Assembly: GCA_947034885.2 (NCBI GenBank)
Contig: OX344755.2
Location: forward strand, 4,962,501 to 5,026,500
Direction: 5' to 3'
From: Thuidium tamariscinum
Lineage: Eukaryota; Streptophyta; Bryopsida; Hypnales; Thuidiaceae
Length of the DNA: 64,000 nt
Position numbers and translations under genes: made by a program. The notes under the pieces are model-generated. The model made no database searches and was not told the origin of the DNA. It was given only the letters and a program-made list of their open reading frames with translations. Within the stretch, counting starts at the first letter, position 1. The number at the start of each line of letters is the position of its first letter. This document shows positions 5,991 to 60,705 of this stretch, piece by piece.

Positions 5991-6005
5991 CCCTCCCCTC
6001 CTCCT

Positions 6006-6024
6006 CCCCCCCCCCCCCCCCCCC
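6006..6024. repeat. C19 homopolymer
   Basis: A run of 19 cytosines on the plus strand, next to a short fragment of the GTATCC-rich repeat also seen at 39.7 and 61.5 kb. Confidence 0.9.
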
Positions 6025-6400
6025 TCATTAGAAAAATCAATAACTGTTAGATTTGAATTTTTTAAATCCCACCCTGCCTCTAAGAAAAATCAGCAACCAT
6101 CGGATACAAATATGGATACCTAATACGAATATTGAATATGGATAATACATATAAATATTTGTACCAAATACAAATATTGATACTAGTTCTAAATACGTAT
6201 ATCTATACTAGATATTGAGCTCACTCATCTGATAGGCAACCCAGAAAATCCAAATTGTACTCACTGGTGGCGTGTGGAATTCAGCATTGGACATAATTCT
6301 GAGGTCAGTTTGATCCAGTCCCACAACCAGTCCCACTGTGAAGAAAAAATCAACAACAGATAGCTTTGCCATGCCCTTGCAATCAAGGAACACTTAACCC

Positions 6401-6650
6401 TTAACCCCTAAGTGTCACAAACCAAACAACTCTGAAGGCGGGACCATCCTAAAAAAAGGCAACATAACTTGAATTTGAATTGGTTATTGCATTCTTCATC
6501 ATATAGATCTTTAGCCAACAACCTCATCAATCTAAACTCATTTCTTTGGGGGAAATCCACTATATGGATGTAAACATTATACGGTTTGATGAATCTAGTC
6601 TCCCAGAATTACAGGTTTGAAAAACATTCCTTGTAACGTTCAAGGGTTAA
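6401..6650. mobile_element. Short TTAA-family MITE
   Basis: TTAA lies at both borders (6401-6404, 6647-6650), with termini CCCCTAAGTGTCAC and CCCTTGAACGTTAC. The related block at about 49262 has a single TTAA at this point, which fits an empty site. The 242-bp interior has no coding capacity. Confidence 0.6.
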
Positions 6651-6923: not shown

Positions 6924-9900
6924 CTCAAACATACCTAGACACGGCCCAAAAATAAGGGGCTTTTTTACTTTTATCTCTAGTGAATCCAAAAATGACCCTG
7001 TGGGGCCCTGTTCGAATGGAAGATTTAGTGTCTTGCCTACAAAAGATCTTCACTTTCCACCCCTAATTCTGAAGATGAATAATCGCATTTCTCTCTTATA
7101 CAAAGAGATTCTCTCTTGTTTATTGACTAGAAAATGTCCTCCATGTTGTTTATGGGTTAAACAATTGTGGAAGAATGTTATGTACATCTTGCTCATAGTA
7201 ACATCTTGCATATGTGGCCTTAGAGTGAGAGTTAGACCACTCATGTATAGCTACAATTCCATAACATTATATGCCCTACTTAACCTTGTGAAAACGTTGC
7301 AAACCAAAATGGTTTGATGAATGATAAGAGATTTTCCCATATAAGACAAAAATGCAATCATTCATCCTCGATTTTAGGAGTGGAAAGTGGAGATCTTCTA
7401 TAGTTCTTTGACTCCAAATGAGTTTTTTTGAATATTTTATTACCAATGACTCCCACGGTTTTAGAAATGATGAAATCCACATGGCCCCCTACGTCCTTCC
7501 AGGGTTAAATAGCAGATTTTGACTTCTTCCACAACCAAGTGAATCACGCTAACGTACATGGTTGTCTGTATGGGAAGATGAATTAGTTTAGGAGCTTGTT
7601 CATCTCTTCCACAACAACCATTATTTAAAGCACTACGCCATTCCAACCAACTAGATTCATGACCATCTCTTCATCTGAGAATAACAACAACATACAGCTT
7701 CATTCCATCAACTGATAGAATCACTCCTAATTGTAGGCATGTACCTACAACCATTTGAAGGTGTTTGTAACACATGTACCTATAGCACATATACATTATA
7801 ATATGGGAAGTTGATAATATAAGTACCTATAATATAGACGCCTATTATCATAGAAAGTATATATAATATAGATTTTTGGATTCATAGAATCTATACTCAC
7901 ATGCTAGCATTTTCTTTCATATATTCAAACCCAACTTGTCATTATAAAAAATTTTGTTTACAAAATGCCTTGATTTTTTTTCAAGCAAGAAAATATAAGT
8001 GGAGGAATAATTAGAGTCCTAGAAAACCCTCCTTTTGAACCAAATTTGTGAAGAAAGTTCAACTCATGAATTTGGGAAATTCCTTGCTACTACAACTCAA
8101 GTTGCTTGTGGATACGGAGCATATTACACCATGTGAAGTGGAACTTGACCTTCAAGTTGAACTTTGGAACTTGGTACTTTTGATTATTAGGGGTTGTCAG
8201 AGCTCTTCAGAGAAATTGATTTCCTCAAGGAATGCGAAGTTGGTGAGATAAAATAGCAGACTCTGATTTCTTCCACAACCAAGTGAGTCACACTAACGAA
8301 CATGGTTGTCTGTATGGGAAGATGAATTAGTTTAGCAGCTTGTTCATCTCTTCCACAATGACCACTATTTAAAGCATGATGCCATTCCAACCAGATTGAT
8401 GACTATTTCTACATCTGAGAAAAACAACAACAGCAGTGATCACATAGAGCTTCACTCCATCAACTGAGGTAATTCTTAAAAATCATGCTCAGATTCTCAG
8501 ATTCTCTGATTTCCAGTACAATTCTGACAGAAACATTTTCACAATTGAAAGCAAGAAAAATGTTCTGTGTCTGGATTTGGAATATTCTTTCCAATTTCAT
8601 TTCCAAGTATAGTAAAATGGGTAATGCTCTTAGTAAGCAAAACATTGGCTAAAATGGCTTTGTTTCAATCGCATTTAGTATTGGGATGGATTTCTACACC
8701 TCTAGCTTCTAGTATAGAAAAGGAAGACAATTACACCATGTGATGAGCATATAATGTTATCACAATAAATACTAATCCAAAACCAACACCCAACCTACAA
8801 CCTAAGCTACATATTTTCCTTACACAAAGACCCAAGACAATGAAACCTGGTATAAGTTTTAGGTTTGATATTAATTTGGGGCATACAAACCTTAGCTGAT
8901 GACTTTTGGTTCTTAGAATTGCCTTCAATCATGGGCATTGCATCATGATCACAACCAAATCCAACCCTATTTGACAATCAAAATGCCAAACAGTCACACA
9001 TGAAGCATCTAGCAATATGTTCAATAAAAATAGGCTCATAATGCATATTATAAGCCTATTCCCACACTCAAGCCTAGACTGCATTAGTACCAATACATTA
9101 TAAAACTGTACACTTTGAAGAACTCCTAATATCGGTAGGCATTGCAATTTCTTGAATACTACAATTGTGTCACGGTTGGAGACTTTGAAGGCTCAGAATT
9201 GGCATCAACTTTGGCACCTACAAGAGGAGAAAATTGTTTCCAATTAGACAACATTTTGTGTTGGTTGAAAAAGATTGTTTAGATGTACAACCCTGCTTCA
9301 CATTCTTATGGTTACAGTTACATTTGTTTTAAGAGTGTGATAATGCAAGTGTAGTGATCAAAACAGTCATGTCACAATCTCATTTGCTAGTTAAGAGATA
9401 ATTACAACTCATAACCCTTCAATCTAATCATTTTAAGCCCTTCAATCAACCAAAAACTCTTCTATCTAAACATTCTTAATTGAGTAGAACGCCTTGATTT
9501 ACGCTATCAATGTCCCTATAATGCTCTTGAGCCCCCCAACTCTTGAGCATTATGAAGTCAAAAATTGTGATATTCAAAGTGACCAATGCTCAAAACACTA
9601 GGATTGCTATTGAAAGTTCTTAGGTAATTCAATTCTGGAAGAGTGGTACAAGAAATATAGTACATACCACGTCCTCAGGTGACAAAGTAGGTACTAACAG
9701 CCTGCAACTCTCCTCCAAAATCAAATTAATTCGAAGAAGTCATGAGTCTAATACATGATTTGTTCAAAAAGGATCATCTTCCTAGTGATATAATGATAGG
9801 CAGCAGTACAACCAGATTACTAGGAGTTTCCACAAACATTGGGGAATGCAGATTTTAGTAAAATTGGAGTTCCAACCCTGGTTTCAACAAACATTGGGGG

Positions 9901-10009: not shown

Positions 10010-11442
10010 TCACTGGGCAGGAGGAGGGGCACCTGGTTTACACAAAATTCTCCAAAACGAAATAGGGAATGACACTCCAAAGGCAACTATGGCTAATAAG
10101 ATCCCAAAGTAAAAGCCTCCGCCTTTCGGCGACTCCCTCGGTCGGTCAGTGCCGCGCCTTATCTCCCGGTGCACCTGGACAAAATCAATTCCCTCGGGTC
10201 CTGGTTCTCGAAGCAATCGTCCCACTTCCACTGCAGTCTGTTTGCATACAAAGGCGAATCAAAATCAAAGATCAAAATCAACTGAACCCTCCCACACCTG
10301 CAAATCAATTCTACATTCCAAAGACGCCCGTAAACATGTGAACACACAGTAGAAGTGCTGCTTGCTGGAATCAGTTGTAAAGGAAAAAAAGAACTAAACA
10401 TCCTTTCAGAGCTGGTGAGTTCCAAGCCTTGCAAGGTAAGGTACGCCACAATGTATTCACAGACCTTGATGTCTCTGTTAATTGAATTGAGGATTTCTTG
10501 CAAAGAGTTAATATGATTCCACTTCTGTATAACTCCCAAAGTACTGATCACCGAGGCTATCACCGACAAGGCAATCGGGCTCCACACGTTGTGACAGTAC
10601 AAAAGGCTGGAAGTCGACACGGCTGTGAGCACCACCCCTTGGAACACGCTGAAGAATGCGAGCAACTGGTACACCTCGTTCTTCACACTGGCCACCTGGT
10701 TCAGGTAGCGCTCCCCCTGAAGGAAGAACAACTCTTCCTTTCGACTCCACTCGAGCAGCGTCATGCTGAAAATGGGATTCTTCTCTATGTCTAACAATTT
10801 CCTAATCTCTTGGTAGTTCTCCGGTAATTTCGGATATCCTATCCTACCGTCCACATAATTGATTTCGTCTGTCGCCGTTCCTCTCAGTCCACGAGGTTCG
10901 TTTCTCGCAAACCGCCGACCTCCTCGCTCGGCAGCAAGCTCGCGCGGATCCTCAACTTTAATGCGATGGTCGTACACCGTCCGAAGCGCTGTCCTCTCCA
11001 GATCCTCCACCAGGCGCTGCATCTCCACGCGCACCTCGGTCTTCGCCGGCAGAAGCTCCAACAGCGCCTGCTTCTCCTCGCCCCCTTTTTCCGGTCCCTG
11101 CATGCCGTTCAAAGCAGTACCAGCGGAAGAAGTAGCCCCGTCCTCCTGTTCCTGGCACTTCAGATTCGATGCCGCCTCCTCCTCGCCGTGTTCCACCAGA
11201 CACCGGTCGGCTGTCGGCAACTCCGCCGACAGTTGCCGTTGCTGACCCGGGAGTGATCTCCTGATCCATTCCTCCCACACCTGGTCCTGGAGGGCCTTGC
11301 GAGCGAAGGCTATGTCCCCAAGCTCCTGCGACAGCGCCTGCCGCTCCTCCTGGTGCCGAAGTTCGAGCTCCTGCAGTTCCACTTGCAATCGCTCCTCCCT
11401 GAGCCGCTTGCGCTCTTCCGCTCGTGGGACTTGGCTTTCCAT
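10010..11442 (-). CDS. Coiled-coil / three-helix membrane protein, copy B (intact)
   Basis: This is the only intact family member. Exon 1 is 11442-10461 and exon 2 is 10230-10010. The donor (T|GTGAAT) and acceptor (TGCAG|TG) give a 400-residue protein. Start: ATG-GAA-AGC, shared with C and D. Residues 10-45 form a coiled coil (LREERLQVELQELELRHQEE). An acidic linker follows, then a conserved block with GYPKLPENYQEIRKLLDIEK and a Trp-containing segment. Helices are near residues 258-280 (FFSVFQGVVLTAV), 290-310 (SPIALSVIASVISTLGV) and 367-390 (ILLAIVAFGVSFPISFW), and the protein ends CKPGAPPPAQ. Conservation of helix three in all four copies supports the splice. I infer a membrane protein with a large soluble N-terminal part. 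I do not recognise a named family. A MITE (11525-11797) sits about 85 bp upstream of the ATG. Confidence 0.7.
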
Positions 11443-11524
11443 ATTACTCTCTGGTTTTCGGGAGGCAGGAGGAATGTTTGACGCTGGCGCGATGGAATCC
11501 TGGATGCGAAGTTTACTAAGCGTA
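11443..11524 (-). promoter_or_regulatory. 5' leader of copy B
   Basis: This short segment between the ATG and the MITE is conserved in copies A, C and D (GGGAGGCAGGAG and a GATGCGAAGTTTACTAAG stretch). It is probably untranslated leader. Confidence 0.4.
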
Positions 11525-11797
11525 AGGTAGGTACACCCAAAAGCGCCACTTATTCATACAGAGCCTAGTTCCTGCTATTAATTAGTTCAAATTTTTATGT
11601 AGTCCTGTTGGCAAGTGAAAGCATGTTCCAACGCACCAAAGAACGCAGGATTTGGATACCGTATGCAAAAGTTATTAACAGGCAAAGTCTGTTTCTGAAA
11701 GCGCCATCTACAGTCTGTAAACATGACTGATTTCGGAAATGTATGTGCATTGTAGATGGCGCTGTTAGGAACAGGGCGATTTTGGGTGTACCTACCT
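11525..11797. mobile_element. TA-target MITE, copy 2, in the 5' region of copy B
   Basis: The 273-bp element has ends AGGTAGGTACACCCAAAAG and the complement, with TA on each side (11523-11524, 11798-11799). Copy D has the empty site AAGCGTAAGTTAGCC near 55338-55352. Near-identity with copies at 23540 and 27879 suggests a recent burst. Tc1/mariner-type by its TA target. Confidence 0.88.
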
Positions 11798-12075: not shown

Positions 12076-12736
12076 AGGAAAGAATTGATGAATTATTAGT
12101 TCGATGTCAAGCAATCAATTAATAATGTTGAAATTTGTAAACATGATGGAGGTAGGTAAACTGAGGATGAAATTTAATTGGCTAGGGATGATTTAGCTAA
12201 CGCAATGTTTATGCAAGACATTCAATCCTACCTTTGAAGGTGGGTACAGCAAGGTAAATTTTGGGTTCTCTGGGGTTAAAGTGAAAAAAGTCCCCTATTT
12301 TGTGCCAAGACTAGGGTACGTCCTAAACCTCTTAACGCTAGTTTGGATTCTTTCATTGCAAATGTAAATCCAAATTTTTTATTCTTATTTTTTGAAACCC
12401 GGAGTTTATTCCAATAAATCCAGAATTTGCAAAAAATATTAAAAAAATTCCGGCATTTCTCCACGAGGTAAATTCACCTTGTTGGGCCGACCTTCAAAGG
12501 CATGATTTCACATCCTGCAATGTTTAGGGTTGGTTGGCAGACATGACATGACAGCAAGCTTAAGTGTACTGTCCATCGAGCATGGATTTTTTCTAACAAG
12601 CTAGGAACTCAATATCTGAGCCAGACTGAAGTGTGACGCAAGGCGGCGGGCTTCAGTTTGCAGTGCATTGTTCTTTTTCTTCTTATCAATTTTTTGAAAC
12701 TGAAATTAGTGAACTGAAGCCTGGCCGGCTATGTAA
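12076..12736. repeat. Block B spacer
   Basis: A+T-rich DNA with no gene. It is the counterpart of 2360-3250 and 55780-56410. Confidence 0.55.
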
Positions 12737-12999
12737 GAGCATCCCCACCAGGGAGTTCTCTTTCCCTAAAAATTTAGGGAGAGGACCTCAGATGGGGATG
12801 GGGATACAGAAGCTTGTGCGCACCGGTCTCAAAACAAGATCTCTACCCCAAATTTATAGAGAACTCGGTAAAAGTTGGGCCCAATTCTCTATATTCAAGC
12901 TCATATAAAGAACACGCGAGGTCTCATCTCTATAAAGTCAAGGTTGACTGGATTGAGGTCCCAATTTTAGGGAAAGAGAACTCCCTGGTGGGGATGCTC
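12737..12999. mobile_element. PIF/Harbinger-like MITE, copy 1
   Basis: The termini are GAGCATCCCCACCAGGG and its complement CCTGGTGGGGATGCTC. TAA precedes it and TTA (13000-13002) follows. The 263-bp body is non-coding and about as long as copies at 13003 and 52491. Confidence 0.8.
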
Positions 13000-13002
13000 T
13001 TA

Positions 13003-13265
13003 GAGCATCCCCACCAGGTGAGTTCCCTATCCCTAAAAATTTAGGGAGAGGACCTCAAATGGGGATGGGGATACAGAAGCTTGCACGCACCAGTCTCAAA
13101 GCAAAATCTCTACCCCAAATTATAGAGAACTCGCTAAAAGTTGCATCCAATTCCCTATATCCGAGCTCATATAGAGAACTCGTGAGGTCTCATCCCTATA
13201 AAGTCAAGGTTGACTAGATTGAGATCCCAAGTTTAGGGATAGGGAACACCCCAGTGGGGATGCTC
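13003..13265. mobile_element. PIF/Harbinger-like MITE, copy 2, abutting copy 1
   Basis: Same family as the preceding element and in the same orientation, starting straight after a shared TTA. It ends GGGGATGCTC followed by TAA (13266-13268). The body is closest to the copy at 52491-52753. Confidence 0.8.
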
Positions 13266-13287
13266 TAAGGATCCCCATGCCTGCACT

Positions 13288-14338
13288 TTAATCCCTAACT
13301 GCAGGGGACATCATTTCATGGCTTTTGCATTAACAGAAACACTACAACAAAACATGGTAAAAAAAGTCGTACTCAAAATTGAGTGCAATTTTTTGTGCCA
13401 CGTTTTTGTGCATGCGCGTGTAGAGGGCAATCAGATTTTTTTGCAATTTTTCACTACAATTTTTTGAATTTTGGGGCGTGTAATATACCATTGGAAAGAT
13501 ATTTTCAATACCTTTCCAATGGTATATTACACGCCCCACAATTCAAAAAATTGTAGTGATAAATTTCAAAAAAGGCTGATTATGCACATAGTTTGCCCAC
13601 ACAAAACTGTGGCAAAAAAAACCACACTCAATTTTGAGTACAATTTTTTTTATCATGTTTTGTTATAGTGAAGATCATATGGAGAACAATTGAAAGCATT
13701 TTTTCATTCATTTTTGCCTTGTTGATCTTGGAGGGTTACGAAGAGTATCCTGAGTTTGTAGGCTTCCTATTGTTTAACTTCTCATGAATGAGAAGTTAGT
13801 AAAAAAATCGGATCACTAAAATATGCTATTTTCAATGTATTTTGGAAAGTTGTTGCTCCTGTCTCTAAATCTAAAATTTCTCCACAAAAATGATAGTTTT
13901 TGAGTTTGAATCCAATTAACAAAATGAAGGTCATTTATTATAGTTTCTTCTCTGATTGGAAATTTGGAAAAAATCATAAATTTGAATCTTTTATAACAAT
14001 TTGAACTTTGGATGTATTTTCAGTGTCTTCTAGAAAAATTTAGTTTACACCATGATGTTTGCCACTAAAATGTACACACATGGTGAAATTCTCAGATTTT
14101 TTGACATAATTTCCTATTTGATATGATTTTTCTTCACTTTTTCTTCAAAAATTCTCAGAAAAATCAATTTTCCTCAAAAAAATCTGAAATTTCTAGGAAG
14201 TACAGAAGAGATGTAACATCATCCCTGATAAATAAAAACAAAATTTTATTGTACATATTCAGTCCCAAAATGGTAGCAAAGTGTGTGTTGGCATAGGGTC
14301 TGAAAACAGTGGTTATAGGTCCAGCATTTAGGGGTTAA
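13288..14338. mobile_element. TTAA-family element with a nested foldback element
   Basis: TTAA lies at both borders (13288-13291, 14335-14338), with termini TCCCTAACTGCAGGG and CCCCTAAATGCTGGAC. Block D has the exact empty site, GCACTTTAAAGCAACAC at about 57934-57950, with one TTAA. Removing the nested 331-bp element leaves about 710 bp, close to the related element at 48193-48927. Non-coding; piggyBac-like by target and terminus. Confidence 0.85.
13340..13670. mobile_element. Foldback CACTA-like MITE
   Basis: The whole 331 bp is one long imperfect palindrome: the left arm starts CACTACAACAAAACATGG and the right arm, complemented, CACTATAACAAAACATGA. The arms meet near 13505. Because of this, both strands carry almost the same open frame (GRVIYHWK on each), which is an artefact of symmetry. 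CACTA termini suggest CMC/En-Spm origin. Flanking triplets AAA and AAG are only a partial duplication. Confidence 0.75.
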
Positions 14339-14405: not shown

Positions 14406-14787
14406 TTAACCCTTAAAGGTCAATACAGACGTTCAACGTCCGATGAATGACAGAAAGTCAAGTTGTTTGATGTAGAAATTTTTTTTTCATCCATTTTTTT
14501 CAGTGAATGCGATAATACAAATGTTCTTTGTCTTTGAAGCCCAAAAACAGTGCCACTGAACGCTTCCTCATATTTAGGTGGTGCAAATTGTAAGTAGAAA
14601 CCACGGAGATTCTTAGAAACAATGTTAGAAGCCCTATTGCCCTTCTTGCAATTTGTATGGAGGTAGCAAGCCATGCAGGATTTTGCAAGATCATGAACAG
14701 TGTTTTTCTCACGGTCAAACAATGGATGATGAACAATCCATAGCCTAGCTTTGCCCCACGGTGATCAGTTCGTCATTCAAGGGTTAA
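14406..14787. mobile_element. TTAA-bordered element, copy 1
   Basis: TTAA lies at 14406-14409 and 14784-14787, with termini CCCTTAAAGGTCAATAC and CCCTTGAATGACGAAC. A counterpart occupies 58010-58421, so it predates the B/D duplication. Non-coding. Confidence 0.6.
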
Positions 14788-14819: not shown

Positions 14820-17800
14820 TCTAAAGCAATTAGGGTTGGGGTGAATTGACCCCCACTTGACCACTTGGGAAAACACTGAAATCTTCACTTTCTACACATA
14901 ATAAAAATTGCAAATTTTGAATTCATATTTGTAATCAGAGGCCCCAAATTAGCTGAGTAATGTATACAAGGTAAGTTAGTCAAGCATAGAATAGGGAGCT
15001 TTTTGTTTTACTTATATCCCTGGAATTACTTGGTGTGGCCAACCGAAGGGGCTAATTCACCAAGTAAGTTGAGGCAAATAGGCAAATCAATAGGTGATTG
15101 TGTATTGGCTTATGAACAACACTCATGTCTTAGGAAAAAGTTTGAGATTTGTGGTTTCAATTTGACGACACAAAATAGTTAAATTAGATTGCCCCAAAGT
15201 AGTCTATCAACATTGGACACTATGTAAATATTTTCACTAGTTGTACATGAATGCACTACATTAGAATTAGGTATTGTTGTAATTGGGATTTATGAACTTC
15301 CATATGTAGAAATGAATTTTTTTTTCAAGATTTGTTGACTTAGATAGCTTGTAGGCAACCTAATTTTAAAGTCAATCTTATTGTGAAGGCAATCTAATTT
15401 TACTATTTTGTATAACCACAAACTAGTGCAATTAAGAAAGAAGTTCATGACAAGAACCCATAGAGAAACACAAACTAAAATTTTAAGAATGTGGACCTTC
15501 TTAAACTGTCCCTAGACTGCAATTAAATAATGTATTTGCCAAATGCTTGACTCTAATTTGCTGATGTACATAAAGGACATATACCAAATCTGATTGAATC
15601 ATTGCTAATTTTAGCAACTTTAGATTTGGAGGCATCTATTGAATAGTTTTAATGGTTTAGGGAGCCAACACTTTGGAAAATCATAGAAGTTACATACGGC
15701 ATCAGAAAAATCTTTTTTTAAAAATATTCATGATTTTCACTTGCTAATATTAGAAAAATATTATTTTTAGAAAAAATTGCCTCCAACTATGCTAAATTCC
15801 TTATTTGGACAGTTTTGGGTGTTTCCACTGTAAATGGTGTCTTGAATGAAAAACTAGTAGGCCACCCCAAGATTTATCATACCTACTATGAAACCATGGA
15901 TGAATTTCTTAGATGATAGTCATGGAGTTCTAGAAAAAGGCTAACCGAACACTAGCTACTGAATGTTATAGAGTTTTTGAAAAAAGTGCTAAGATGGTGA
16001 TCATTTCAAATTTGGTAAAGCATTGTATTTTTACATCCATCCATCTTCTGGAACTAAAAATACTTTCCAATCATGTTCATACATTTTTTAATCCAAATTT
16101 GACAATTTCATCTATATTTTGAATTGAAATGAGAAATTTATAACAAAAAAAGATCACTTTTACCAAACAAGGCATTCATTTTGAAATGATCCAATTTGGC
16201 ACCACAATGCCACCAAAAAGAAGGATGGGTTTGAGACTACCAATTGATGCATGATTAGGCACGTACAATAATTCATACATTGCCAAATTCTGTAATGCGA
16301 CCAGGGAATTCATAATCATTGGCATTGATTGTACTCAACACACTGTAAGGCGGTATTTTCATTTAATCAATCATTTCAGGTATTCTAAACATGATATAGT
16401 GTAAGAAAGAAACACCTATTTCTGCACATGTTCTTTGTCCCTAAACTCATCCAATTACGTCCCTAGACTTTGATGAATGTGTCTTCCATATGCTAAACAT
16501 TGATTTGTTGAGACATTCGAAGGATATATATATTTAACTGTGATTCACTAACAACTAATTTTTGCAAAGTTTAGATTTGAGTGCACCTATGTGACAATTT
16601 CAGTGGTCTATGTAGCCAATACTTTGAAAAATCATAGAAATTACATACAACATCCAAAAAATCTAATTTTTAATAGATATTTATAATTTTCACTTGCTAA
16701 TACTACAAAAATATTATTTAAAAGAATAGATGCCTTCAACTATGCTAGATTATTTATATTGACAATTTTGGGTGCTCCCACCTAGTGCAAGGCAAAGCAA
16801 ATTTTTTCAAAGATGCAACAATAGAAGTTATAGGGATTGCAAAATTTTTGGTAATTTTATCATATTAATTGAAATTACTATGAATTTTGAAAGGCAAAAA
16901 AAGAACAAGTAACATATATAGACAATCTCTAGATTCTTCTAATTCCAGTCATTCAAAGAACTTCTTTCCTACTCACTGCTTCCTACTTTCTTGCACACTG
17001 CTTTTGAACATGTGTCATGAATTTTTAATCCCAACTTTGAAAAGGAGAAAAAATACATTTTGTAGGCAGGTCTTTCTTGGTTGTGTTAGGTTGTAGTTGT
17101 GGGTTGGGTTTTTTTGTTTTTGTATCTCCAAACCACTTGTGGTTAGTACCTTGTGCTCTTATTCTTTTGCAATGAAATTGCATTTTCTTATGTGCCAAAA
17201 GAAATGTAGGAAGAAATTTTCTTACATTTTGTTTTTGAAGCTAAGGTGGATCTTAGTACAACATTAAATAATCATACCAAGTTTTGAAACAAGCAAGTCT
17301 CTACATTTATGTGAAGAAGGATTTGAATTTTGTCTATGTATTGATTGGAAAATTTATTATATGCCTGTATGACGAAATGAGTTTGTGACTGTAGGAAATC
17401 AAAGTTTTTTTTTTTTTAGTGATTTAGCTTTTTTGAAGTATTGGCAATAATTTTCGATGAACTTTGAGGAAGTGGCTACTTTTGTTCATTGTAGGGAGAA
17501 AACAATTTTCCCTAAATAGGTGAATATTAGTGAATTTTTGCTGTGCATAGATTTTGATGATAAAGCAAAAGTGGCAACATATCCATCTTTATAGTAGATG
17601 TATACTAGCCAGAACTAAAAATGTGATCTAATGACTACTATTTGGTGCACGATCTGGTGACTTTGTTTGGAATAATGAGAGAAGTACAAGTGATTATAAA
17701 CTTGTGCTTAACAAATTTAGTGACAATGTTATCTTTTGGTAGGAGGCTAGATGGCTAAATACAATTAGTGGATAGTGAAATTAGGCAAAAAACAACAATT

Positions 17801-20120: not shown

Positions 20121-20726
20121 CTAATTGTGCATATTTAGGACTCCCATACTCCCTGAAATCCAGGACTGGAGAGTGCGAAAGTAGTGGAATTTTGCCCATT
20201 CAACGAAACTGACATTGAAGGCTACCAAAAAACTAGAACACAAGTGAAAAGCTCCGAAGTCTTTCCAAGAAAATTTATGGAAAAACATTTCAAGGAGTTC
20301 AGTTTCCCTCCGAAATGCGATCAACTCGTAAATGGGTTGCTTGAAATGGACCCTCGATCTTAGTAGAGGTGGTGGAAGAGCAATTGGAAGCAATCCATAC
20401 CTTCTTTGGAAGTAAAAAAAGCCATGAAAGGTACTTCTCAATCTCCTTTGGAAGCTCTCAGCCTCTCTCGGAAACTCTTTCAGAACGAAGTCTTTGGAAA
20501 TCTCAATTGCGGAAAGTCGTTGAATGGTGTCTGAAGAAAACGACCCCAACTTCTTATTGTTCGGCAGTTTATACAACACATACTCGTAGTAAGTGGCATG
20601 GTTGTCCGCTTGGATTGTCATGACCTTCCCCGGCTCCAGCACTGGGTGCTCGTGGAGTATGTTAGAATTCCCCTCCGTCACTTGCACGTTGGAACCCGAA
20701 TTGTTCCTCAAGGTGGTCTTCCCCAT
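20121..20726 (-). CDS. Uncharacterised protein, about 201 residues
   Basis: One open frame runs from ATG at 20726 (MGKTTLRNNSG) to a stop at 20121. The frame extends 10 codons further upstream only through a TTG, so I use the ATG. The N-terminal part (residues 1-65, with NVQVTEGN, LEPGKVMTIQ and NATYYEYVL-like HATYYEYVLYK) reads like a compact beta-rich domain. By memory it resembles short plant proteins grouped as DUF7748, but this is tentative. The C-terminal half is rich in Phe, Arg and Leu with no motif I know and may contain unspliced intron sequence. There is no paralogue in the window. The gene lies 3' of copy C on the same strand, with no sign of a functional link. Confidence 0.5.
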   Translation of the reverse strand: MGKTTLRNNSGSNVQVTEGNSNILHEHPVLEPGKVMTIQADNHATYYEYVLYKLPNNKKLGSFSSDTIQRLSAIEISKDFVLKEFPREAESFQRRLRSTFHGFFYFQRRYGLLPIALPPPLLRSRVHFKQPIYELIAFRRETELLEMFFHKFSWKDFGAFHLCSSFLVAFNVSFVEWAKFHYFRTLQSWISGSMGVLNMHN

Positions 20727-20759
20727 TTTGGCTGTGATTGAACTGCATCCCCACAACTT

Positions 20760-23182: not shown

Positions 23183-23537
23183 ATTACTCTCTGGTTTTCG
23201 GGAGGCAGGAGGAATGTTCGACGTTGGCGTGATCGAATCGTGGATGCGAAGTTTACAAAGTTAAGCGTCGCCGGCTTTCGAGGAACCCGGATTTTATGAT
23301 AGCTGTCGAGATGGCGTGCAAAGTCCGTCGATCAAGGGACTGGGTGGCCGCGCTGCCCACCTGGACCAAATCCGTGCTGGAAGGTCGAATTCCCTTTTCT
23401 CCTGGTCCCACCGACTGTGCTCTGAACAGTCCGTCCTTTTGTTTTACACAACATTCTTTACACAGGCAAGTGATGTGGAAATTTTGACACCAAATCAGTA
23501 ACTGTTGAAGAATTGGTCAAAGCCCAGACAAGGGAAG
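23183..23537 (-). promoter_or_regulatory. Conserved upstream region of copy C
   Basis: This is the counterpart of the regions 5' of A, B and D, uninterrupted here. It ends at the TA where a MITE is inserted (23538). Confidence 0.4.
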
Positions 23538-28182: not shown

Positions 28183-29136
28183 TTAACCCCTAAAGGACCA
28201 AACTGCGTTTTTTGGCAACATAGCGATTTTGGGCAGTTTACTATGAATGGAGTTTTTATCCTTTTTCTTTGAAATTTTCACACAACATGCGCCCAAGGAG
28301 TTGCTTTGAGGTCCAACAAGTTTCATAACATTTGACTACATAGTCAAAAAGTTATTACATGATATATGATTTCCTTTGATCTCTGGGCAGCCTGGGTAGA
28401 TAAAAAAACTTCTTTAAAAATAATTTTTTGAAAAAATGAAAAATTGAAATATTTTATTTAGAATTTTGTGTATGCAAGAATCTTTGAATCATTCCATTTG
28501 GATTAGTGAGTCAAAAGTTATGAGGAGGTTTAGTTTGAGGTAGTTTGTGGCTAGTTACAAAATTCCTACACTACAAAAAAAGTTTGAAATCCTTTATTTA
28601 ATTCAATTTTTAATATTTTTGGATAAAAATATTTGCAATAGGTGAAGATTGTTTATTACAACATTTTAACCATTGGGATCAAAAAATTTCAATTCCATAA
28701 ATAAATTGTGTACAATTTAGTGTTTTGGCTCATTTTCTACTTCTTTGTACTTGTTATTTTTTTCCTCTATGTTTTACAAATCCAAATGATTTGAATTTCT
28801 TTTTGCATATAGCCAACTTTCCTTTAAGAATGAATCCAGAGAGTAACCACCAATTTGAACTTTTTTTCATACAAATGTAACCTTGTGAAGTGCAGCTGCC
28901 CGGATTTCCGCAGTGGTAAAAAAATGATTTTTGTCACTTCAAACACTAATATCTTGCAATCTACACAGCGGAAATTGCTGAAATTTTTTCCATGTCTTTT
29001 TAAAATTATTCTCTAAAAGATCCTACGGTTACTTTTGTCCAAAAATGTTTTTTTCTTAAAATTTGATAATTGTCTAAAAAATGACAATTTTGAAGCGGTT
29101 TTGGTGAAAACATAGTCAAAAACCTTTAGGGGTTAA
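28183..29136. mobile_element. TTAA-family element, 946-bp type
   Basis: TTAA-CCCCTAAAGGACC at the left and CCTTTAGGGG-TTAA at the right. The empty site ATTCTTAAAAATCATG is at 8470-8485 and 51337-51352. A close relative in opposite orientation is nested in the copia element at 43274-44222. No transposase frame. Confidence 0.85.
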
Positions 29137-29542: not shown

Positions 29543-30471
29543 TTAACCCATAAAGGTCTAAGGCCATTTCTTTTTGTCAAAAATCACTCAAAATTGCCAT
29601 TTTTGTTGTGTTCATTCAAAAAAATAAAAAAAAATGTTTTAATAAAATTTTACCATAGGATCTTCTACTTTGTTTTTTTGAAATCATGTGGTAAAAATTT
29701 CATGAAGTTTGACCCTACAGATTGGAAGATATGAGCATTCAAAGTTTTAAAAACATAGTCTTTTTAAACACTATCTTGCAATTTGAGATGACTTTGATTG
29801 CCATTTGTTGAATTTTTTTGCACTATAGACTTTCAATAAAAAAATTTATGTATTGAAGAATTGAGTTGAAAGTTTAGGAATTTTTTTAAAAAAAAGCGTG
29901 ATTTTCATTCCTTAAAAACTTATTAAGTAGAAGTAAGTTCAAGATTGAAAGAAAAATTAAATCATTAATAGCTCTAAGATGGAATTGAAACACAATAATC
30001 CCAATTGTGAGATTGTTCTAGCAAGCAAATTTAACCTTGTCAAGATTTTTTTTTGAAAAAAATGTGAAAATTGCATTTAGAAATGAAACCTATTAGTTAT
30101 TTTTTCAAGAAGATGCTCAAACTGCCCAAAACACAAGATTGTTTATAACTTTCACATAACTAATCCAAATGGAATGAATTAAAGCTTCACACGTAGACAA
30201 AAATATGATTTATAAGACAAAAATTTAATTTAATTTAATTAAAAAAATTTGTGAATATATATTTTTGCCTGCTAAGTTAAAATTTGGGCTTTTGAGGTAT
30301 AACTTTTGCTCATAGGTACCAATTGAAATAAAAAATTATATTCCCACAAAGCTAATTAATTTTCCTATATTATGAGAAAGTTTCAAAAAGTTTCACTAAA
30401 AATTAAGGTCATCATAACCTGCCTGAACTCCAAATTGTCCCCGGAGGAAACAATGGGCTTTTAGAGGTTAA
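29543..30471. mobile_element. TTAA-family element
   Basis: TTAA-CCCATAAAGGTC at the left and CTTTTAGAGG-TTAA at the right, 921 bp inside. It is similar in length and interior to the elements at 36501 and 59765. Non-coding. Confidence 0.7.
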
Positions 30472-36500: not shown

Positions 36501-37417
36501 TTAGCCCCTAAAGAACCAAGCCCTGTTTTCTACCCAAAAATACTAAAAACTGCTAATTCTATAGCAAAGAGTAAAAATAAAAATTAATTCATTTTTTTTC
36601 ACATCTAACCATAGGATCTTATACCTCACTAGTCTAAGATAGTGTGAAAAAAAATTCAGAATTTTTGACCACATACATTGCAAGATACTTGCATTTAAAG
36701 TGGGAAAAACAAGTTTTTCAACACATTACGGGACTGGATTTTTTGACTTTGAACATTTTTAACTTAAAAATTTTGCACTAAAGGGTTTTGAGCTTTAATA
36801 ATTTCTAGTGAAAAATTGAGTTGAGAATCTAGGAAAAAAAAAGAAATTCAAAAAAACTTAATTTTCATTCTTAAAAAAAAATTTAAATACAAGTAGGTAC
36901 GAGATAGAAGGAAAATCTAAAATATTAATATCTTTTAGATGGAATTAAAATGCCCTAATCCTAATGGTGAGATTATTCTAGCAAGTAAACTAAACCATGA
37001 AAATTTTTTTATTTTGAAAAATTGCAAAAATTGCATCCAAAAATGAATCCTACAAGTTTGTTTTTTTCAAGAAAATGCTCTAATTGCCCGAAAAACAAGA
37101 ATGTCCATAACTTTCTCATAACAAATCCAAATAAAATGAATCAAAGCTTCCTAGATAGACAAAAATATAATCTATAAGAAAAAAAATTCAAATTTTTTCT
37201 TTGCTCCCCGAATTTCCCGCCGTCCCCTGTTTTGAGGTTATTTGGGCATAACTTTTGTTCCCGGTCACCGATTGAAAAAAAAATTATATCCCCACGAAGA
37301 TATTCAATTTTTCTATCTCTAAAAGAAGTTTCAAAAAATTAGGACAAAATTCAGCCCGTAGGTACCTGCCCAAAATTGCATTTGTTCCCCGAAGGGACAA
37401 TGGTTCTTTAGAGGTTA
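36501..37417. mobile_element. TTAA-family element with a TTAG target
   Basis: TTAG-CCCCTAAAGAACC at the left and GGTTCTTTAGAGG-TTAG at the right. The uninterrupted site is CCCACCTAGTGCAAGG at 16776-16791. About 909 bp inside, non-coding. The target differs from TTAA at the last base. Confidence 0.75.
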
Positions 37418-37892
37418 GTGCAAGGCAAAACAAATGTTTTCAACAGTGCAATGTTAGAAGTTATGGGGATTGCAAAAACTTTGGTAATTTATCACATTAA
37501 CTTAAATTACTATTAATTTTGAAAAGAAAAAAATACACAAGTACCATAGACAATCTCTAGATTCTTCTAATTCTAATGAAGATAGTCAAAAAATTACTTT
37601 CCCACATACTGCTTCCTACTTTCTTGCACACTACTTTTGGACATATGCCATGAAATTTTAGTCCCAACTCTGAAAAGGAGAAAAAACAAATTGTGTAGGC
37701 CAGTCCCTCTTAGGTGTGTTAGGATATATAGTTGTGGGTTGGGTGTTGTTTGGTTTTTATCACCAAGCCACTTGTGGTTGACACCTTGTGCTCTAATTCT
37801 TTTGCAATGAAATTGCATTTTTGATGTGCCAAAAAAATGATGGAAGAAATTTTCTTACATTTTGTTTTTAAATGTGGGTCTTAATATGACAT
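37418..37892. repeat. Copy of 16786-17270
   Basis: Collinear with the tail of block B. No gene is supported; frames are not shared between the copies. Confidence 0.55.
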
Positions 37893-38546
37893 TTAACCCC
37901 AGAATGACATTGAGGACAAAATGTGTTCTCAAGCATTTTTAGAAGCTAAATAAAACCTATCCAAGTTATTATATTTAGAAGTTTATATTTTTTGAAGAAT
38001 CCTTTATAAGTCTAATTTTAGCATCAAAAATCCGATTTTGAAAGTGAATGATCATGGTTTGTTAATTCAAGATTTTGTGCAAAGGTGTTCATTGCAATCT
38101 TGGCTTTTTGTAGTGTTGAGGGTTCTTGGAAATGAGTCTCAAATACATTAGATCTTGGAGAAAAAATCACATTCAAAATTCATTTACAAAAACTGTAGAG
38201 TAGATTTTGAGAAGCCATAAATTGATTGGGGTTTTGCATATTAGGCTGTTAATCTTGTATTTTTTTGGTGACCAAATTTTTAGATTTGACATGTGAAAAG
38301 AGGATTGAAAGACTTCAAATCATTTTTACAGTTTTAACACCCCCATGATCAAATATTATAACCTTTCAATCCATTATTGATATTGTTGTTTTTTCTTTTC
38401 TAATGTAATCTCTAACATGTCTAGTTTGAATTTGTATGGTTATAATTTAAAAAAAATTGGAACAACTTATCAAAATGTTGGCATTTTATTCAATGTAGAG
38501 TAAATTCTTTAAAGCTAAAGAAAACTCAAGGTCATTATGGGGTTAA
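37893..38546. mobile_element. TTAA-family element, 646-bp type
   Basis: TTAA at both edges, with termini CCCCAGAATGACATTGAGG and CCCCATAATGACCTTGAG. The empty site ACATTAAATAATC is at about 17261-17273. Its interior matches the element at 56415-57069 in opposite orientation. Confidence 0.82.
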
Positions 38547-42593: not shown

Positions 42594-42692
42594 ACTGTAG
42601 GTAAAGAAGGAGTAGCATCAATAATAGTCTTGCGTTTGCGTGGTTGTTTGTCTAGTTCACGAGTCCGTTTACTAATAGATTGAGGAGTAGCA

Positions 42693-44872
42693 CCCGGGGA
42701 GATCACTCCTTGTAATTTTAAGCATACACCTGAGTTAAGAGGGTATTTAACATAGGGCTATTTACCTTCATTTTAGTAATTAAAATGACCGTATTTTTAC
42801 AAATAAATTCAATCATTTGGTTTTTATAGTTAGGCTATTTTATATATAAAATTTATATGTCTAATTTTTTCATATCCATTTACAACACACTATAAAAGTA
42901 GTGTCTTACATATACACTATTTTTTTAATATATGCACTACTTGTATTGTAGTATAATTTCAATTGATAAATAAAAATGTAAAATGCAACAATAGCTTTAA
43001 ATATTCTAAATTCTATGTCATGTATTCTAAACAAACTAATATGGTGAATAATAAACATCATAGGAACATTAAATATAGTTATGATATTAAAACTAAGAAA
43101 AACACCAATCCTAGCAATATAACATGAACAACATAAGAAATTGACACTCTAAAAATATTGTAGATTAACCCAAGAATATGACCTCTATTGTAATATAGAG
43201 ACTATATATTTTATTTTTATATATGCAATTACAATGGTTTTGAATTTAGAATCAAAAAATAAAAGAGTGTTTATTAACCGCCTACAGGTTTTTGACTATG
43301 TTTTCACCAAAAATGCTCCAAAACTGCCATTTCTAATACAAGTGCAATTTTTTTAAAACACATTTTTGACTCATGTAACCATAGGATCTTGTATTAAGGT
43401 GGTTTGTAAACATGGGGAAAAAATTTCAGAAATTTCCACCGTGTAGATTGCAAGATATAAGTAATTGAATTGACAAAAATTGTTCTTTTATCCCTGCGAA
43501 AATCCGGGCAGCTGCACTTCACAAGGTCACATTCGTGTGAAAAAAAACTCAAAATCGTGGTTACTCTTTGAATTCATACTTCAATGCAAGTTGGCTACAT
43601 TCTCAAAAAAATTCAAACCATTTGGAATTGTACAACATATAGGAAAAAATAAGTAAGTAGAAAGAAGTAAAAAATGAGCCAAAATACTAAATTGTGAACA
43701 TTTTATTCATTGAATTGAAAATTTTCAATCCCAATGGTTAAAATGTTGTAATAAACAATCTACACCTTCAATTTTTATTTTTTTTCAAAAATATGAAAAA
43801 CTTGAATTAAATGATGAATTTCAAACTTTTTTTGTATTGTAGAGATTCTGTAACTAGCTACAAATTACCCCAAACTCAAAATCTTCATAACTTTTGACTC
43901 ATTGATCAAAATGGATTGATTCAAATCTTCCCATGTCTATATAAACCTAATGAACCAATTTGAACTTTCACTTTTAAAAAAAAAGTTTTTTTGAAGAAGT
44001 TTTTTCAGCTACCCAGGCTGTCTGTCGAGTAAAGAAAACAACATATCCTGCCATAACTTTAAAACCGTGAAGTCAAAAGTCATGAAAATTGTCGGGCCTT
44101 AAAGTTACTTCTTGGGTACACATTGTATCAAAATTTCAAAGAAAAAAAACAACTCCATCCGTAGTGAGCTGCCCTAAAAATTTATAATCTCAAAAAACGT
44201 TGTTCATGGCTTTAGGGGTTAAACACTAGCAAAAAGAAGATGATTCTAAACATTTACAAGTATATGTTCAAGGAATGGAGGCAAATCTAGAGTTTTTAGT
44301 GTCAAAGCATAGAAAAGATTCCATGCAAATGTTGCACACTCTACATCAATTTCTTAATGGGTAGTTTGTGTGAACACAAATCTCCATATTACAACCTCAT
44401 TGTAAATTTACAGCTCAATTCTTTTGTCTTGGAACACTAGTTTTTACATGCTTTTACACAATTGGTATACTTAGGGAAAGATTTGTATGTATAGGTTAGA
44501 GTGTACACCATACACCATATGCCATGCATTATTCCATATATTATTTGATGATAACAACAAATCTCCTAAAAAACATCCTTAGATTTACTAAATTGTGTAA
44601 GTTTTATCATTCAATTAAAAAAATTTGTTTACATCTGTACTCATTGTACTACAAACTTTTTATATGAACCCTATTTGTAAAGGCTAATTTATTAATAAAA
44701 ATTACTACTAAATGATATTTATACATAGCCTAATTTATATATAATAGGATATGTGACATTTCGAGAACCCTATAGTAGTTCTACATATATATAAAATTTA
44801 TCCCCTTTGAATTAAATAGACCCTATCTTTTAACTCACGTAGTTTTCTAAAAATCGTGAGTAATCTCCCCAG
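42693..44872. mobile_element. 2.18-kb Mutator-like non-autonomous element inside copia
   Basis: It interrupts the region between integrase and reverse transcriptase. GGAGTAGCA is duplicated (42684-42692, 44873-44881), a 9-bp target as in Mutator-like elements; removing the insert restores the copia frame across the junction. Termini are CCCGGGGAGATCACTC and complement CTGGGGAGATTACTC, with further partial subterminal similarity (GAGTTAA, then AGGG.CTATTTA). The interior has no transposase and holds a TTAA element at 43274-44222. Confidence 0.8.
43274..44222. mobile_element. TTAA-family element nested inside the Mutator-like element
   Basis: TTAA borders at 43274-43277 and 44219-44222; on the minus strand it starts CCCCTAAAGCCATGAAC. 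It is the inverted relative of 28183-29136 and has almost the same length (941 against 946 bp). It gives the insertion order copia, then Mutator-like, then TTAA element. Confidence 0.8.
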
Positions 44873-44881
44873 GGAGTAGCA

Positions 44882-46105: not shown

Positions 46106-46106
46106 A

Positions 46107-47498: not shown

Positions 47499-47539
47499 GA
47501 TGTAGAAGAAAGAAGAAAAATATGGCTTTGGGAGAAATT

Positions 47540-48192: not shown

Positions 48193-48927
48193 TTAACCCT
48201 TAAACACCGGGCCTACAGCCACTGGTTTCAGGACTCACTATCCATCACCCAGTTTGTTGCCATTTTCTAACCAGATTTGTATGAAATTTTTTAATTTTAT
48301 TTTTCAGAGATGAAAATACATGTCCTCTATACTTCAAAAAAAATTCAGATTTTTTTGAGGAAAATTGTATTTTATGAAATTTTTTGAAGAGAAAATGAAG
48401 AAAAAATCATAGAAAATAGAAAATAATCTCAAAAAATCTGAAAATTTCACCATGTGTGAAAAATACAGTGGAAATCATCATGGTGTAAACTAATTTGCCG
48501 TGTACATCTATAATTAGAATGCAATGGACATTAAAAATACAGCCAAAGTTCAAATTGCAATAAAATATTCAATTTTACGAATTTTTTCAAAATTTCAGTT
48601 GGAAAAGAAACTAGAGTAGAGGACCTCCATTTCATTAGTTGGGCTCAAATTCAAAAAATGTCGTTTTCAAGGATAAATTTCAGATTTACTCAATTTCTCA
48701 AAATACACTAAAATGACAAATTTTGCCATCCGTTTTCCTTCATTATTTCTAAATTACATGAAAAAAAAAATCAATTACACTAAGAATTCACTTGGACACT
48801 CTTTGTAACTCAACATGAAAGGTCATTGGGAAAAAAACGGATGAAAAAAGTACTGTTCAGCCCCTCTAGTGGCTTGGAGAAGCCATTCGTAAGCCACAGA
48901 ATGGCGCCGCCGGCATTTCAGGGTTAA
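48193..48927. mobile_element. TTAA-family element
   Basis: TTAA-CCCTTAAACACCGGGC at the left; the right terminus in complement is CCCTGAAATGCCGGC. 727 bp, non-coding. The interior is related in inverted orientation to the element at 13288-14338. Confidence 0.72.
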
Positions 48928-48999: not shown

Positions 49000-50628
49000 G
49001 ATAGGCAACCCAGAAACTCCAAATTGTCCTCACTGGTGGTGTGTGGAATTGGGCATTGGACATGATTCTGAGCTTTGATCCAGTCCCACAACCAGTCCAG
49101 TTCATAACTTAACTGATTACGAAGAAAAAATCAACAACAGATAGCTTGAGCCATGCCCTTGCAAACAAACAAGCATCTAAATATTCCCTCTTTTCAACAT
49201 ACATACTCTCCTGAGAAGGCAACCACCTACTACTGCCAAAACCAAAGGGACACTTAACCTTTAAACGACAAGCTGGTGACTGTGTAAAACATGAATTTTG
49301 ATACCATGGGAATCATTGTTTAAAAAAAATTCAAAGCACTCATTGTTAGAAGTCAAAGCATTATAGAATATCTTCTCTTTCCACCCCTAATTCTGAGGAT
49401 GAATAATTGCATTTCTCTCTTACACATAGACATTATCTCTTGTTTATTGATTAGAAAATGTCCTCCATGTTGTTTATGGGTTAAATAACTATGGAAGAAT
49501 GTTATGTACATCTTGTTCATAATAACATCTTGCATGCGTGGCTTTGGGGTGAGAATTAGACCACTCGCACATAGCTAGAATTCCATAACATTATATGCCC
49601 TACTTAACCTTGTAAAAATGTTGCAGACCAAAATGGTTTGATGAATGACAAGAGATTTTTCCATGTAGGACAAAAATGCAATCATTCATCCTCAGTTTTA
49701 GGAGTGCAAAATGGAGATCTTCTATAGTTCTTTGACTCCAAATGAATTTTTTTGAATATTTGATTACCAATGACTCCCGCAGTTTTAGAAAAGATGATAT
49801 CTACAGGGACCCCCACGTCCTTCCAGGGCTAAATAGCAGATTCTGACTTCTTCCACAACCAAGTGAGTCACGCTAACATACATGGTTGTCTGTATGGGAA
49901 GATGAAGTAGTTTAGCAGCTTGTTCATCTCTTCCACAACAACCGTTATTTAAAGCATGATGCCATTCCAACCAACCAGATTGATGGCCATCTCTTCATCT
50001 GAGAAAAACAACAACATACAGCTTCATTCCATCAACTGAGGGAATTCTTAGAATCACTCCTAATTGTAGGCATGTATCTACAATCATTTGGAGGTGTTTG
50101 TAATACATATACCTATAGCACATATACATTATAATATGGAAAGTTGATAATATAAGTATTTATAATATAGACGTCTATAATCATAGAAAGTATATATAAT
50201 ATAGACTCTTGGATTCATATAATCTATACTCATATGCTAGCATTTTTCTTCATATATTCAAACCCAACTTGTTATTATAAAAAAATTTGTTTACAAAATG
50301 CCTTGATTTTTTTTCAAGCAAGAAAATATAAGTGGAGGAATAATTAGAGTCCTAGGAAACCCTCCTTTTGAACCAAATTTGGGAAGAAAGTTCAACTCAT
50401 GAATTTGGAAAATTCCTTGCTACTACAACTCAAGTTGCTTGTGGATACGGAGCATATTACACCATGTGAAGTGGAACTTGACCTTCAAGTTGAACTTTGG
50501 AACTTGGTACTTTTGATTATTAGGGGTTGTCAGAGCTCTTCAGAGAAATTGATTTCCTGAAGGAATGGGAAGTTGGTGAGATAAAATAGCAGACTCTGAT
50601 TTCTTCCACAACCAAGTGAGTCACACTA
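49000..50628. repeat. Block D, first part
   Basis: Collinear with 6200-8290. No gene. The 25-unit GT tract and the TTAA element of block B are missing here. Confidence 0.65.
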
Positions 50629-56414: not shown

Positions 56415-57069
56415 TTAACCCCTAACTGCCCAAGGCCTATTTCTAGTTTCTTAGAATTTGCTCTAAGTTGAACAAAATGCCAACATATTGATAAGTTGTA
56501 TCAATCTTTTTTGAATTGTAACCATACAAATTCAGACTAGACATGTTAGAGATTACATAGGAAAAGAAAACACGACAATAACACTTGTGGAATAAAAGAT
56601 TATAACGTTTGACCATGAGGGTGTTAAAACTACAAAAGTGATATAAAGTGTTTTTATCCTCTTTTTGCAAGTTAAATCTAAAAAGTTGGTGACCAAAAAA
56701 ATATGAGGTGAAAGGGCCTAACATGCACAACTCCAATCAATTTACGGCTCTTCAAAATCTATTCTACAATTTTTTTAAATGAATTTTGAATGTGATTTTT
56801 TTTTCAAGATCTAGTGTATTTGAAGCTCATTTTCAAGAGCTCTCAACACTACACAAAGTCAAGATTGCAAGGGGTACTCTTGTACAAAATCTTGTATGGA
56901 AAAATCACTATCATTCATTTACCAGATCGGATTTTTGACACTAAAACTAGACTTCTAGAAGAACTTTCCAAAAATACAAACTACTAAAAATTGCAAATTG
57001 GTCAAATTTTATTTAACTTCAAAATTTTGCAAACACCATATTCTGGTGCCTTGGGCAGTTATGGGTTAA
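56415..57069. mobile_element. TTAA-family element, 647-bp type
   Basis: TTAA borders, with termini CCCCTAACTGCCCAAGGC and complement CCCATAACTGCCCAAGGC, the longest near-perfect repeat in this family here (17 of 18). Inverted relative of 37893-38546. Non-coding. Confidence 0.85.
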
Positions 57070-57917: not shown

Positions 57918-58456
57918 CAGCATCCCCATGCCTGCACTTTAAAGCAACACTTTAGACATTGTACACCACTGATCTTCCTCTCAGAAGGAAGATGAGTGGT
58001 TGAAAATGTTTAATCATTAGGTCGACACGGATGTTCAACGTCCGATGAATGATAGAAAGTTAGGCTGCTGGATGTAGAGAATTTTTTTTCATCTGTTTTT
58101 TCAATGAATGCGATATTGCTCTTGTGCTCTGTCTTAGAAGCCCCAAAACAATGCCAATGAACGCTTCCTCATATTTAGGTGGTGCAAATTGTAAATTGAA
58201 ACCACGGAGATTCTTGTAAATGGTGTTAGAGGTCCGGTTGTCTACATAGAAAGGCAAAAAGACGGGGAGGGTGCCCTTCTTGCAATTTGTATGAATGCAA
58301 CAAGCAATGCAAAATTTTGCAAGATCATGAATAGTGTTTTTCTCGCAGTCAAACAATGGATGGTGAATAGTCCACAACCTAGCTTCGCCCCACGGTGATT
58401 AGTTTGTTGTTCAAGGGTTAAAGAGTTGCTTCCAAGTGTAGCTATAGGAATGCTCT
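57918..58456. mobile_element. Harbinger-like repeat carrying a hairpin and a TTAA element
   Basis: Begins AGCATCCCCATGCCTGCAC and ends near GAATGCTCTC. It contains the hairpin (57964-57999, one mismatch) and the TTAA-bordered segment 58010-58421. It corresponds to about 13269-14822, minus the TTAA element present there. Confidence 0.55.
58010..58421. mobile_element. TTAA-bordered element, copy 2
   Basis: TTAA at 58010-58013 and 58418-58421, right terminus CCCTTGAACAAC in complement. Orthologous by position to 14406-14787. Left terminus eroded. Confidence 0.5.
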
Positions 58457-59764: not shown

Positions 59765-60705
59765 TTAGCCTCTAAACAACTAAGGCCATTTTTTGGCCAA
59801 AAAACATTGAGACTGATTGCCATTTCTATTGCGAAGACTAAAAAGAATTGAATTTTTTCTCTTTTGAGATCTCATTGTAGGATATTATACTTAATTAGCA
59901 TGAAAATGTTTGGAATAATTTTGAAATTTTTGGACCATATAGATTGCAAAATATCTATGTTTAAAGTAAAAAGAACAATTTTTTTAGTACATTGTCAAAC
60001 TAGATTTATTGACTCTGAACCTTTCTAATTTAAATTTTTTGCACTACTGATTTTGTGAGCTTTAAATCTTTCTAGTGGAGAACTCAATTGAAAGTCAAGG
60101 AAAAAAAATTTGAATTCAAGAAATCTTAATTTCATTCTTAAGAAAATTGATTAAGTATAGTACAAGTAGACATGAGATAGAAGTAAAGTCTAGATTATTT
60201 AAATTTCTAAGATGGAATTAAAATGCACTAATTACAATAGTGAGATCGTTTTAGCAAACAAATTAAATTATGTGTAGTTTTAAAAAATATATATAATAAT
60301 TGCATTCACAAACAAATCCAATAAGTTATTTCTTGAAAAAGATGATTAGACTGCTTAAAAAACAAGATTGTTTTTACTTTTATATAACTTATTAAAATGA
60401 AACAAATCAAAGTTTTCCATGTAGAGAAAAACACAATCTATAGGATTTTTTTTGTCTTAAAATTCAAAGTTTATAATTTTTTTGGACTTCCCGATTTCTC
60501 CTATTTCGAACTTATTTGGGATATCTTTTTATCCTAGGCACTAATTTGGAAAAAAAATTACATTCCCATGGAGCTAATCTATTTTTCTATCTTCAAGATA
60601 AATATGAAAAAATCAAAATATAAATTGACGGTGCAAGTACATGTCCCAAATCCCATTTGTCCACCATATGGTGATAATTATGGACAATGGTCCTTTAAAA
60701 GTTAA
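59765..60705. mobile_element. TTAA-family element
   Basis: Left TTAG-CCTCTAAACAAC, right CCTTTAAAAG-TTAA. The full-length relative of the truncated copies at 5135 and 26905. Non-coding. Confidence 0.6.

Follow-up and report, generated by a model that had tools for sequence, protein, structure and literature searches.

The window, the 64-kb stretch of the Thuidium tamariscinum assembly analysed here, carries a repeated gene family, remnants of several transposons and a set of short elements bordered by TTAA, among them the element under study at 13288..14338. The repeated genes lie on the minus strand within large segmental duplications (747-1985, 10159-11553, 22020-23260 and 54324-55346). A protein encoded at 22020-22655, also on the minus strand, found 20 relatives in a protein search, and the three that are named all belong to the moss Ceratodon purpureus (49-56% identity), which bears out the placement of this DNA in a plant by the first-pass annotation, made from the sequence alone. 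Two further minus-strand features were recognised: a frame at 20121-20759 with DUF7748 (PF24928, E 1e-11) and, at 40796-47537, a broken copia-type retrotransposon with an RVT_2 match and an integrase match just below the curated cut-off. A dispersed, unclassified repeat of about 320 bp recurs at 16459-16780, 15508-15828, 62695-63011 and 23892-24199. Directly adjoining the element under study, 12736-13277 holds two tandem MITE copies with a 266-bp period (GAGCATCCCCACC...GGGGATGCTC), which we take to be PIF/Harbinger-like.

The first-pass annotation had proposed at least ten TTAA-bordered elements, and all 11 of the starts that it listed pair with a right end of the same terminus kind. A twelfth element, absent from its list, was found at 49254..49484. 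The twelve, none of which is assigned a strand, measure 231-1051 bp and total 8,649 bp, or 13.5% of the window. They are short, non-coding and TIR-bearing and belong to high-copy-number repeats, as MITEs do. A stop-to-stop frame of at least 110 aa occurs among them only in the 14406 element; this 114-aa frame, considered as a transposase remnant, was dropped because it has no Pfam match.

These elements had been read as one family with several subfamilies. BLAST among the 12 does recover groups within the set, three MITE groups and some small unlinked elements, and this structure fits several families better than one. The first group spans 918-954 bp and comprises the elements at 28183..29136 (954 bp), 43274..44222 (949 bp, grouped by sequence with 28183 at 78%), 29543..30471 (929 bp), 36501..37418 (918 bp) and 59765..60705 (941 bp). 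Within this group, the 43274 element has the integrase-like frame of the copia-type remnant on one side and its reverse transcriptase frame on the other, and the limit of the left flank of 36501 coincides, exactly or to a few bases, with the end of the dispersed 320-bp repeat. The second group, of about 655 bp, unites 37893..38546 (654 bp) and 56415..57069 (655 bp), which are 81% identical over 572 bp. The third joins the element under study to 48193..48927 (735 bp) at 75% identity over 500 bp. The 1051-bp length of the element under study is secondary, since some 330 bp of it are a nested hairpin (approximate bounds 13336..13673) lying in an element of roughly 720 bp; the hairpin's inverted arms of 71 and 75 nt and CACTAC...TAGTG ends are presumably those of a CACTA-like insertion. 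The elements at 6401..6650 (250 bp, TTAA on both sides), 49254..49484 (231 bp) and 14406..14787 (382 bp, with a paralogous copy at about 58009-58421) showed no match to other window elements at the BLAST cut-off used.

The borders had been described as TTAA and rarely TTAG, and this description holds: ten of the twelve elements are flanked by TTAA/TTAA, 36501 by TTAG/TTAG, and 59765 by TTAG on the left and TTAA on the right. The left-end G of 59765 is probably a point change, because its diverged paralogues starting at 5135 and 26905 read TTAA there. Inside the tetramer, C occupies the three following positions in 23, 23 and 18 of the 24 ends, giving the CCC start. The inverted repeats are imperfect, with 5 to 15 of 16 ungapped positions in agreement, 43274 being the worst and 56415 matching at 15. 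A scan of the window with the terminus TTAACCCYTAAASR recovered 6 sites without a mismatch, 9 with one and 12 with two, where a set of 20 first-order Markov sequences leads one to expect 0, 0.25 and 3.95 respectively. No excess is seen at three mismatches, with 28 sites observed versus 42 expected. The terminus profile that the first-pass annotation had suggested, built over 16 positions, yields 31 window sites above 14 bits versus 0.9 expected, a result that is partly circular since the profile derives from these same elements. Given the many segmental duplications within the window, neither the insertions nor the terminus matches are all independent.

The same duplications make occupied and empty pairs available. 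The three empty sites claimed earlier are real, one of them exact and two within one base. For the element under study, both flanks of 13288-14338 are matched at a single TTAA at 57939..57942, which is the exact case; the sites for 37893 (17264..17267) and 28183 (8476..8479) each fit within one base. Two pairs are new. The empty counterpart of 36501, at 16783..16785, has CCTAG where the occupied copy has CCTTAG, and so lacks one T. The empty TTAA for 6401-6650, at 49261..49264, belongs to the left-hand terminus of an element of the 49254 type; the 6401 element occupies the corresponding TTAA, so one such element can insert into the terminus of another. Occupied/empty pairs thus total five, one exact and the others with small differences. 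Paralogues with a single TTAA, as aligned here, fit insertion and precise excision alike.

We extended the analysis to the window's own assembly (363,211,507 bases in 19 contigs), with the elements at 48193, 28183 and 37893 as queries, and tabulated 79 MITE copies across these three families, one of which is the window's own copy. For the 48193 query, the best 40 copies were scored of 3,214 first-look candidates, and the 39 others are at 93-98%. Thirty loci of this family were fetched, including the window copy, and both ends were recognised in 29 (L041 is incomplete) with end anchors that leave out the tetramer. These 29 divide into 24 TTAA/TTAA, one TTAG/TTAG, one ATAT/ATAT and three one-sided copies (GTAA/TTAA, TTAA/TCAA and TTGA/TTAA). 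The 28183 query gave a best 47 rows of 9,587 first-look candidates, 40 of them full-length or nearly so; the 39 others among these best-scoring copies score 94-97%. Of thirty copies of the family, 28 have TTAA/TTAA. The remaining two, one with CTAA/CTAA and one with GTAA/TTAA, have matches that start at query base 2, so their tetramers were read by eye with the frame moved by one base. For 37893, among the best 41 rows of 5,069 first-look candidates, the best copies are 82-92% identical to the window copy, and all 20 chosen full-length copies are TTAA/TTAA, two sharing flanks and leaving 19 independent sites. The tabulation of genomic target sites that had been called for, over these selected copies, gives TTAA/TTAA in 72 of 79, matched non-TTAA tetramers in three and one-sided differences in four, with a TTAA share that is biased upward because the copies are the best-scoring ones against TTAA-ended queries. 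In the flanks of L062, L023 and L011, one TTAA is common to neighbouring elements of the same type, as if they were chained end-to-end.

A longer element with the same ends and a DDE_Tnp_1_7 transposase had been suggested as something to scan for, and elements with ends of the same kind that encode a piggyBac transposase (PF13843) are present. When the genome was searched with PF13843, 658 first-look candidates arose, of which 116 were scored (best E 5.7e-80), and none of 14 control genomes gave a signal; by eye count, 74 of the 116 rows lack an in-frame stop in the domain, and PF13843 gives 261-273 bits on four divergent sequences. Eleven loci (L009-L019) are copies of one element, each 5,096 bp long with TTAA on both sides and a different flank, starting TTAACCCCTAAACGCCGG and ending in the complement of TTAACCCTGAAACGCCGG. 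They comprise four distinct sequences with 0-3 differences per pair (mean 0.73), and a frame of 1,023 codons is open in all 11. This near-identity suggests very recent spread and recent activity. In L009 the frame runs over 3450-6518 and its transposase domain, which matches PF13843 at E 5.1e-79, begins at residue 533, leaving a long N-terminal part. An overlapping upstream frame of 285 aa in L009, without a Pfam match, is possibly an exon or a second gene.

Five further transposase loci were fetched (L050-L054), and in four of them both ends were recognised, bearing TTAA and repeats that begin with CCC, the TTAA being partly built in because the search pattern held it and up to two candidates per side were chosen among; no left end of L050 was seen with this TTAA-containing pattern. 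Lineages other than the 5,096-bp element also have open frames. Across six aligned sequences the aspartates D173, D278, D394 and D397 are invariant, in keeping with the catalytic DDD triad of the solved T. ni transposase 6x67, to which L009 aligns, and C491, C494, C502, C505, C510, C514 and H519 are likewise invariant, marking a Cys-rich domain, with a C-terminal Cys/His motif that becomes less regular once L054 is added to the alignment. The aligned transposases are diverse (35-74% identity to L009). A separate comparison among four sequences gave dN values of 0.20-0.46. In a quick tree of 58 rows, with midpoint root and one support type, seven sequences of the genome studied here (G000) form a 22-row clade (SH-aLRT 100) together with 15 unnamed environmental sequences of no known host. 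All 10 rows named as animal fall outside this clade, as do the other rows without a name. Two transposase protein searches returned no named plant protein: the organism-named rows of the first (92 hits) are all animals, and none of the best 120 of 175 rows of the second carries an organism name.

The MITEs and the transposase-bearing elements resemble each other in their ends to varying degrees. At BLAST E <1e-3, five of the 12 window MITEs match ends among three transposase-bearing elements, out of five elements compared. Clear matches at both ends (68-73% over 95-182 bp) are confined to 29543 (73% over 182 bp and 72% over 96 bp of its subterminal regions) and 36501 (68% over 139 bp and 71% over 95 bp), both to L054. 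Single-end matches link the left end of 43274 to L054 (74% over 80 bp), the left end of 37893 to the 5' end of L052 (75% over 60 bp) and the right end of 48193 to the 5' end of L009, the 5,096-bp element (83% over 35 bp). With the first 18 bases omitted, 11 of 24 MITE ends exceed the shuffled 95% level against ten autonomous ends and 13 do not. By this measure both ends of 59765 rise above the shuffles, with L054 as the partner. Three elements fit a tidy pairing less well. For 28183, the right end gives similar scores with L054, L053 and L052, and the left end does not rise above shuffles; for 48193, L054 outscores L009 at the left end, and the right end is barely above shuffles to L009 (22 vs 21); for 37893, the right end is not above shuffles. 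Neither BLAST nor the shuffle comparison linked 6401, 49254 or 14406 to a transposase lineage, and 13288 and 56415 are tied to transposase elements only through their groups. Judged from these end sequences, the 918-954-bp group is well linked to piggyBac-type elements and the other two groups modestly so; the small elements lack such a link.

The piggyBac reading that the first-pass annotation drew from TTAA borders and CCC termini gains support from the four-base duplication and from PF13843 in elements with the same ends. We consider it highly probable (roughly 0.94) that the window elements are piggyBac MITEs that were mobilised in the past by transposases of 5.1-5.6-kb relatives in the same genome. 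The MITEs would be non-coding derivatives that kept piggyBac ends, that is, TTAA and CCCYTAA-type inverted termini; the transposases would cut them out at TTAA and paste them into a new TTAA by piggyBac hairpin cut-and-paste, each MITE group probably being served mainly by the lineage with the most similar ends. A broader proposition, which we hold at even odds, is that this is a native and currently mobile piggyBac radiation in a land plant, in which several transposase lineages, deeply diverged but within a single clade separate from the named animal sequences, would each have its own MITE family, and piggyBac would be no stray but rank among the leading DNA transposon groups of the genome.

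Among the alternatives, the one that survives best, at somewhat short of even odds, accepts piggyBac MITEs and makes them old and immobile, the near-identical 5,096-bp copies representing a separate burst that no longer moves them. It draws on the contrast between the best MITE copies (93-98% in two families, 82-92% for 37893) and the 0-3 differences in 5,096 bp, as well as on the short, one-sided end match of 48193 to the 5,096-bp lineage. These identities, however, were taken to the window copies and not among the youngest copies, and open frames occur in the other transposase lineages too. An origin in another TTAA-targeting superfamily such as Kolobok, which also duplicates TTAA, is very improbable: the elements with the same ends encode DDE_Tnp_1_7, and in the catalytic core the L009 transposase aligns to solved structures of piggyBat (E 1.4e-26) and of T. 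ni piggyBac (E 1.1e-23).

That the elements are PIF/Harbinger MITEs with a TTA/TWA duplication, or Stowaway/mariner MITEs with a TA duplication, for which TTAA is the preferred context of a shorter duplication, has next to no chance of being correct, even though both kinds are common in plants, a PIF-like MITE adjoins the 13288 element, and TTAA contains TA and TTA, so that most single sites read alike under these models: the TTAG/TTAG, ATAT/ATAT and CTAA/CTAA copies, together with TTAG/TTAG at 36501 in the window, have their outer bases duplicated too, which neither the 2-bp TA nor the 3-bp TWA duplication would copy, and elements with matching ends carry PF13843. Both shorter duplications were rejected on these matched tetramers. 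TTA or TWA sites genome-wide had been named as the outcome that would count against piggyBac, and the copies examined resolve instead to a 4-bp duplication of TTAA type. The other such outcome was an autonomous partner with a PIF/Harbinger transposase, and the longer elements recovered with ends of this kind carry DDE_Tnp_1_7.

piggyBac has been studied mostly in animals, and its use in plants has been that of a tool brought in from outside. A plant that combines many open transposase frames with a set of near-identical copies and several families of MITEs would allow the spread and control of piggyBac to be studied in a native plant setting and would supply a source of plant-adapted transposases; recognising it would also allow TTAA repeats that annotation may leave unclassified to be labelled correctly. 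The superfamily had been called rare or little described in land plants. This stands insofar as no piggyBac description from a moss was found among the matches listed in the open-licence literature; it does not stand for plants at large, since four papers name plant or archaeplastid piggyBac. According to PMC8086355, which cites Bouallegue et al. 2017, plants carry piggyBac-like elements; PMC10813416 includes plants among the organisms from which such elements have been isolated; PMC10794571 counts PiggyBac as one of the DNA transposon superfamilies of plants; and PMC9942806 mentions archaeplastid piggyBac. For C-fern, PMC6890710 gives 1,230 PiggyBac-labelled repeats covering 122,417 bp, or 0.00% of the genome.

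Of the systems with solved structures, piggyBat of Myotis lucifugus (9c0f), a member of the piggyBac superfamily, is the better of the two matches, at modest identity and with the difference that the frame here has 1,023 codons with a long N-terminal part. T. ni piggyBac has CCC ends. The T. ni transposase (6x67/6x68) further resembles the moss proteins, as described in PMC7351741, in its TTAA target, its DDD triad (D268/D346/D447) and its C-terminal Cys-rich domain. According to the same paper, it forms TTAA hairpins at the ends of the transposon and inserts them at a TTAA target, so that four base pairs are duplicated; the TTAA can be restored on excision. The elements here have an anatomy that fits this hairpin route. 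The C-terminal motif, H...CxxC...CxxC...C-x3-C-x4-H as read by eye from six aligned sequences, appears nearer to the arrangement of piggyBat and PiggyMac given in PMC8086355 than to the CxxC-CxxC-CxxH-CxxC of T. ni.

The closest parallel in overall organisation is Pokey/mPok of Daphnia, as outlined in PMC3849761. There, too, autonomous elements of about 5.1 kb accompany MITEs of about 750 bp, and separate MITE lineages are paired with separate autonomous lineages, an arrangement to which the groups described here may be likened. TTAA is found in 88% of the Daphnia cases, with rare TTAT, ATAA and CTAA, and non-TTAA sites are likewise rare in the moss; insertion into the TTAA flanking another copy is also described for Pokey/mPok, as likened here. 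The two differ in that Pokey/mPok has an animal host and a preferred rDNA site, whereas the host here is a plant and each of the three MITE queries returned thousands of unscored first-look candidates. The elements of T. tamariscinum represent a familiar type of system, and what makes them notable is their poorly documented host, their diversity and their apparent recency.
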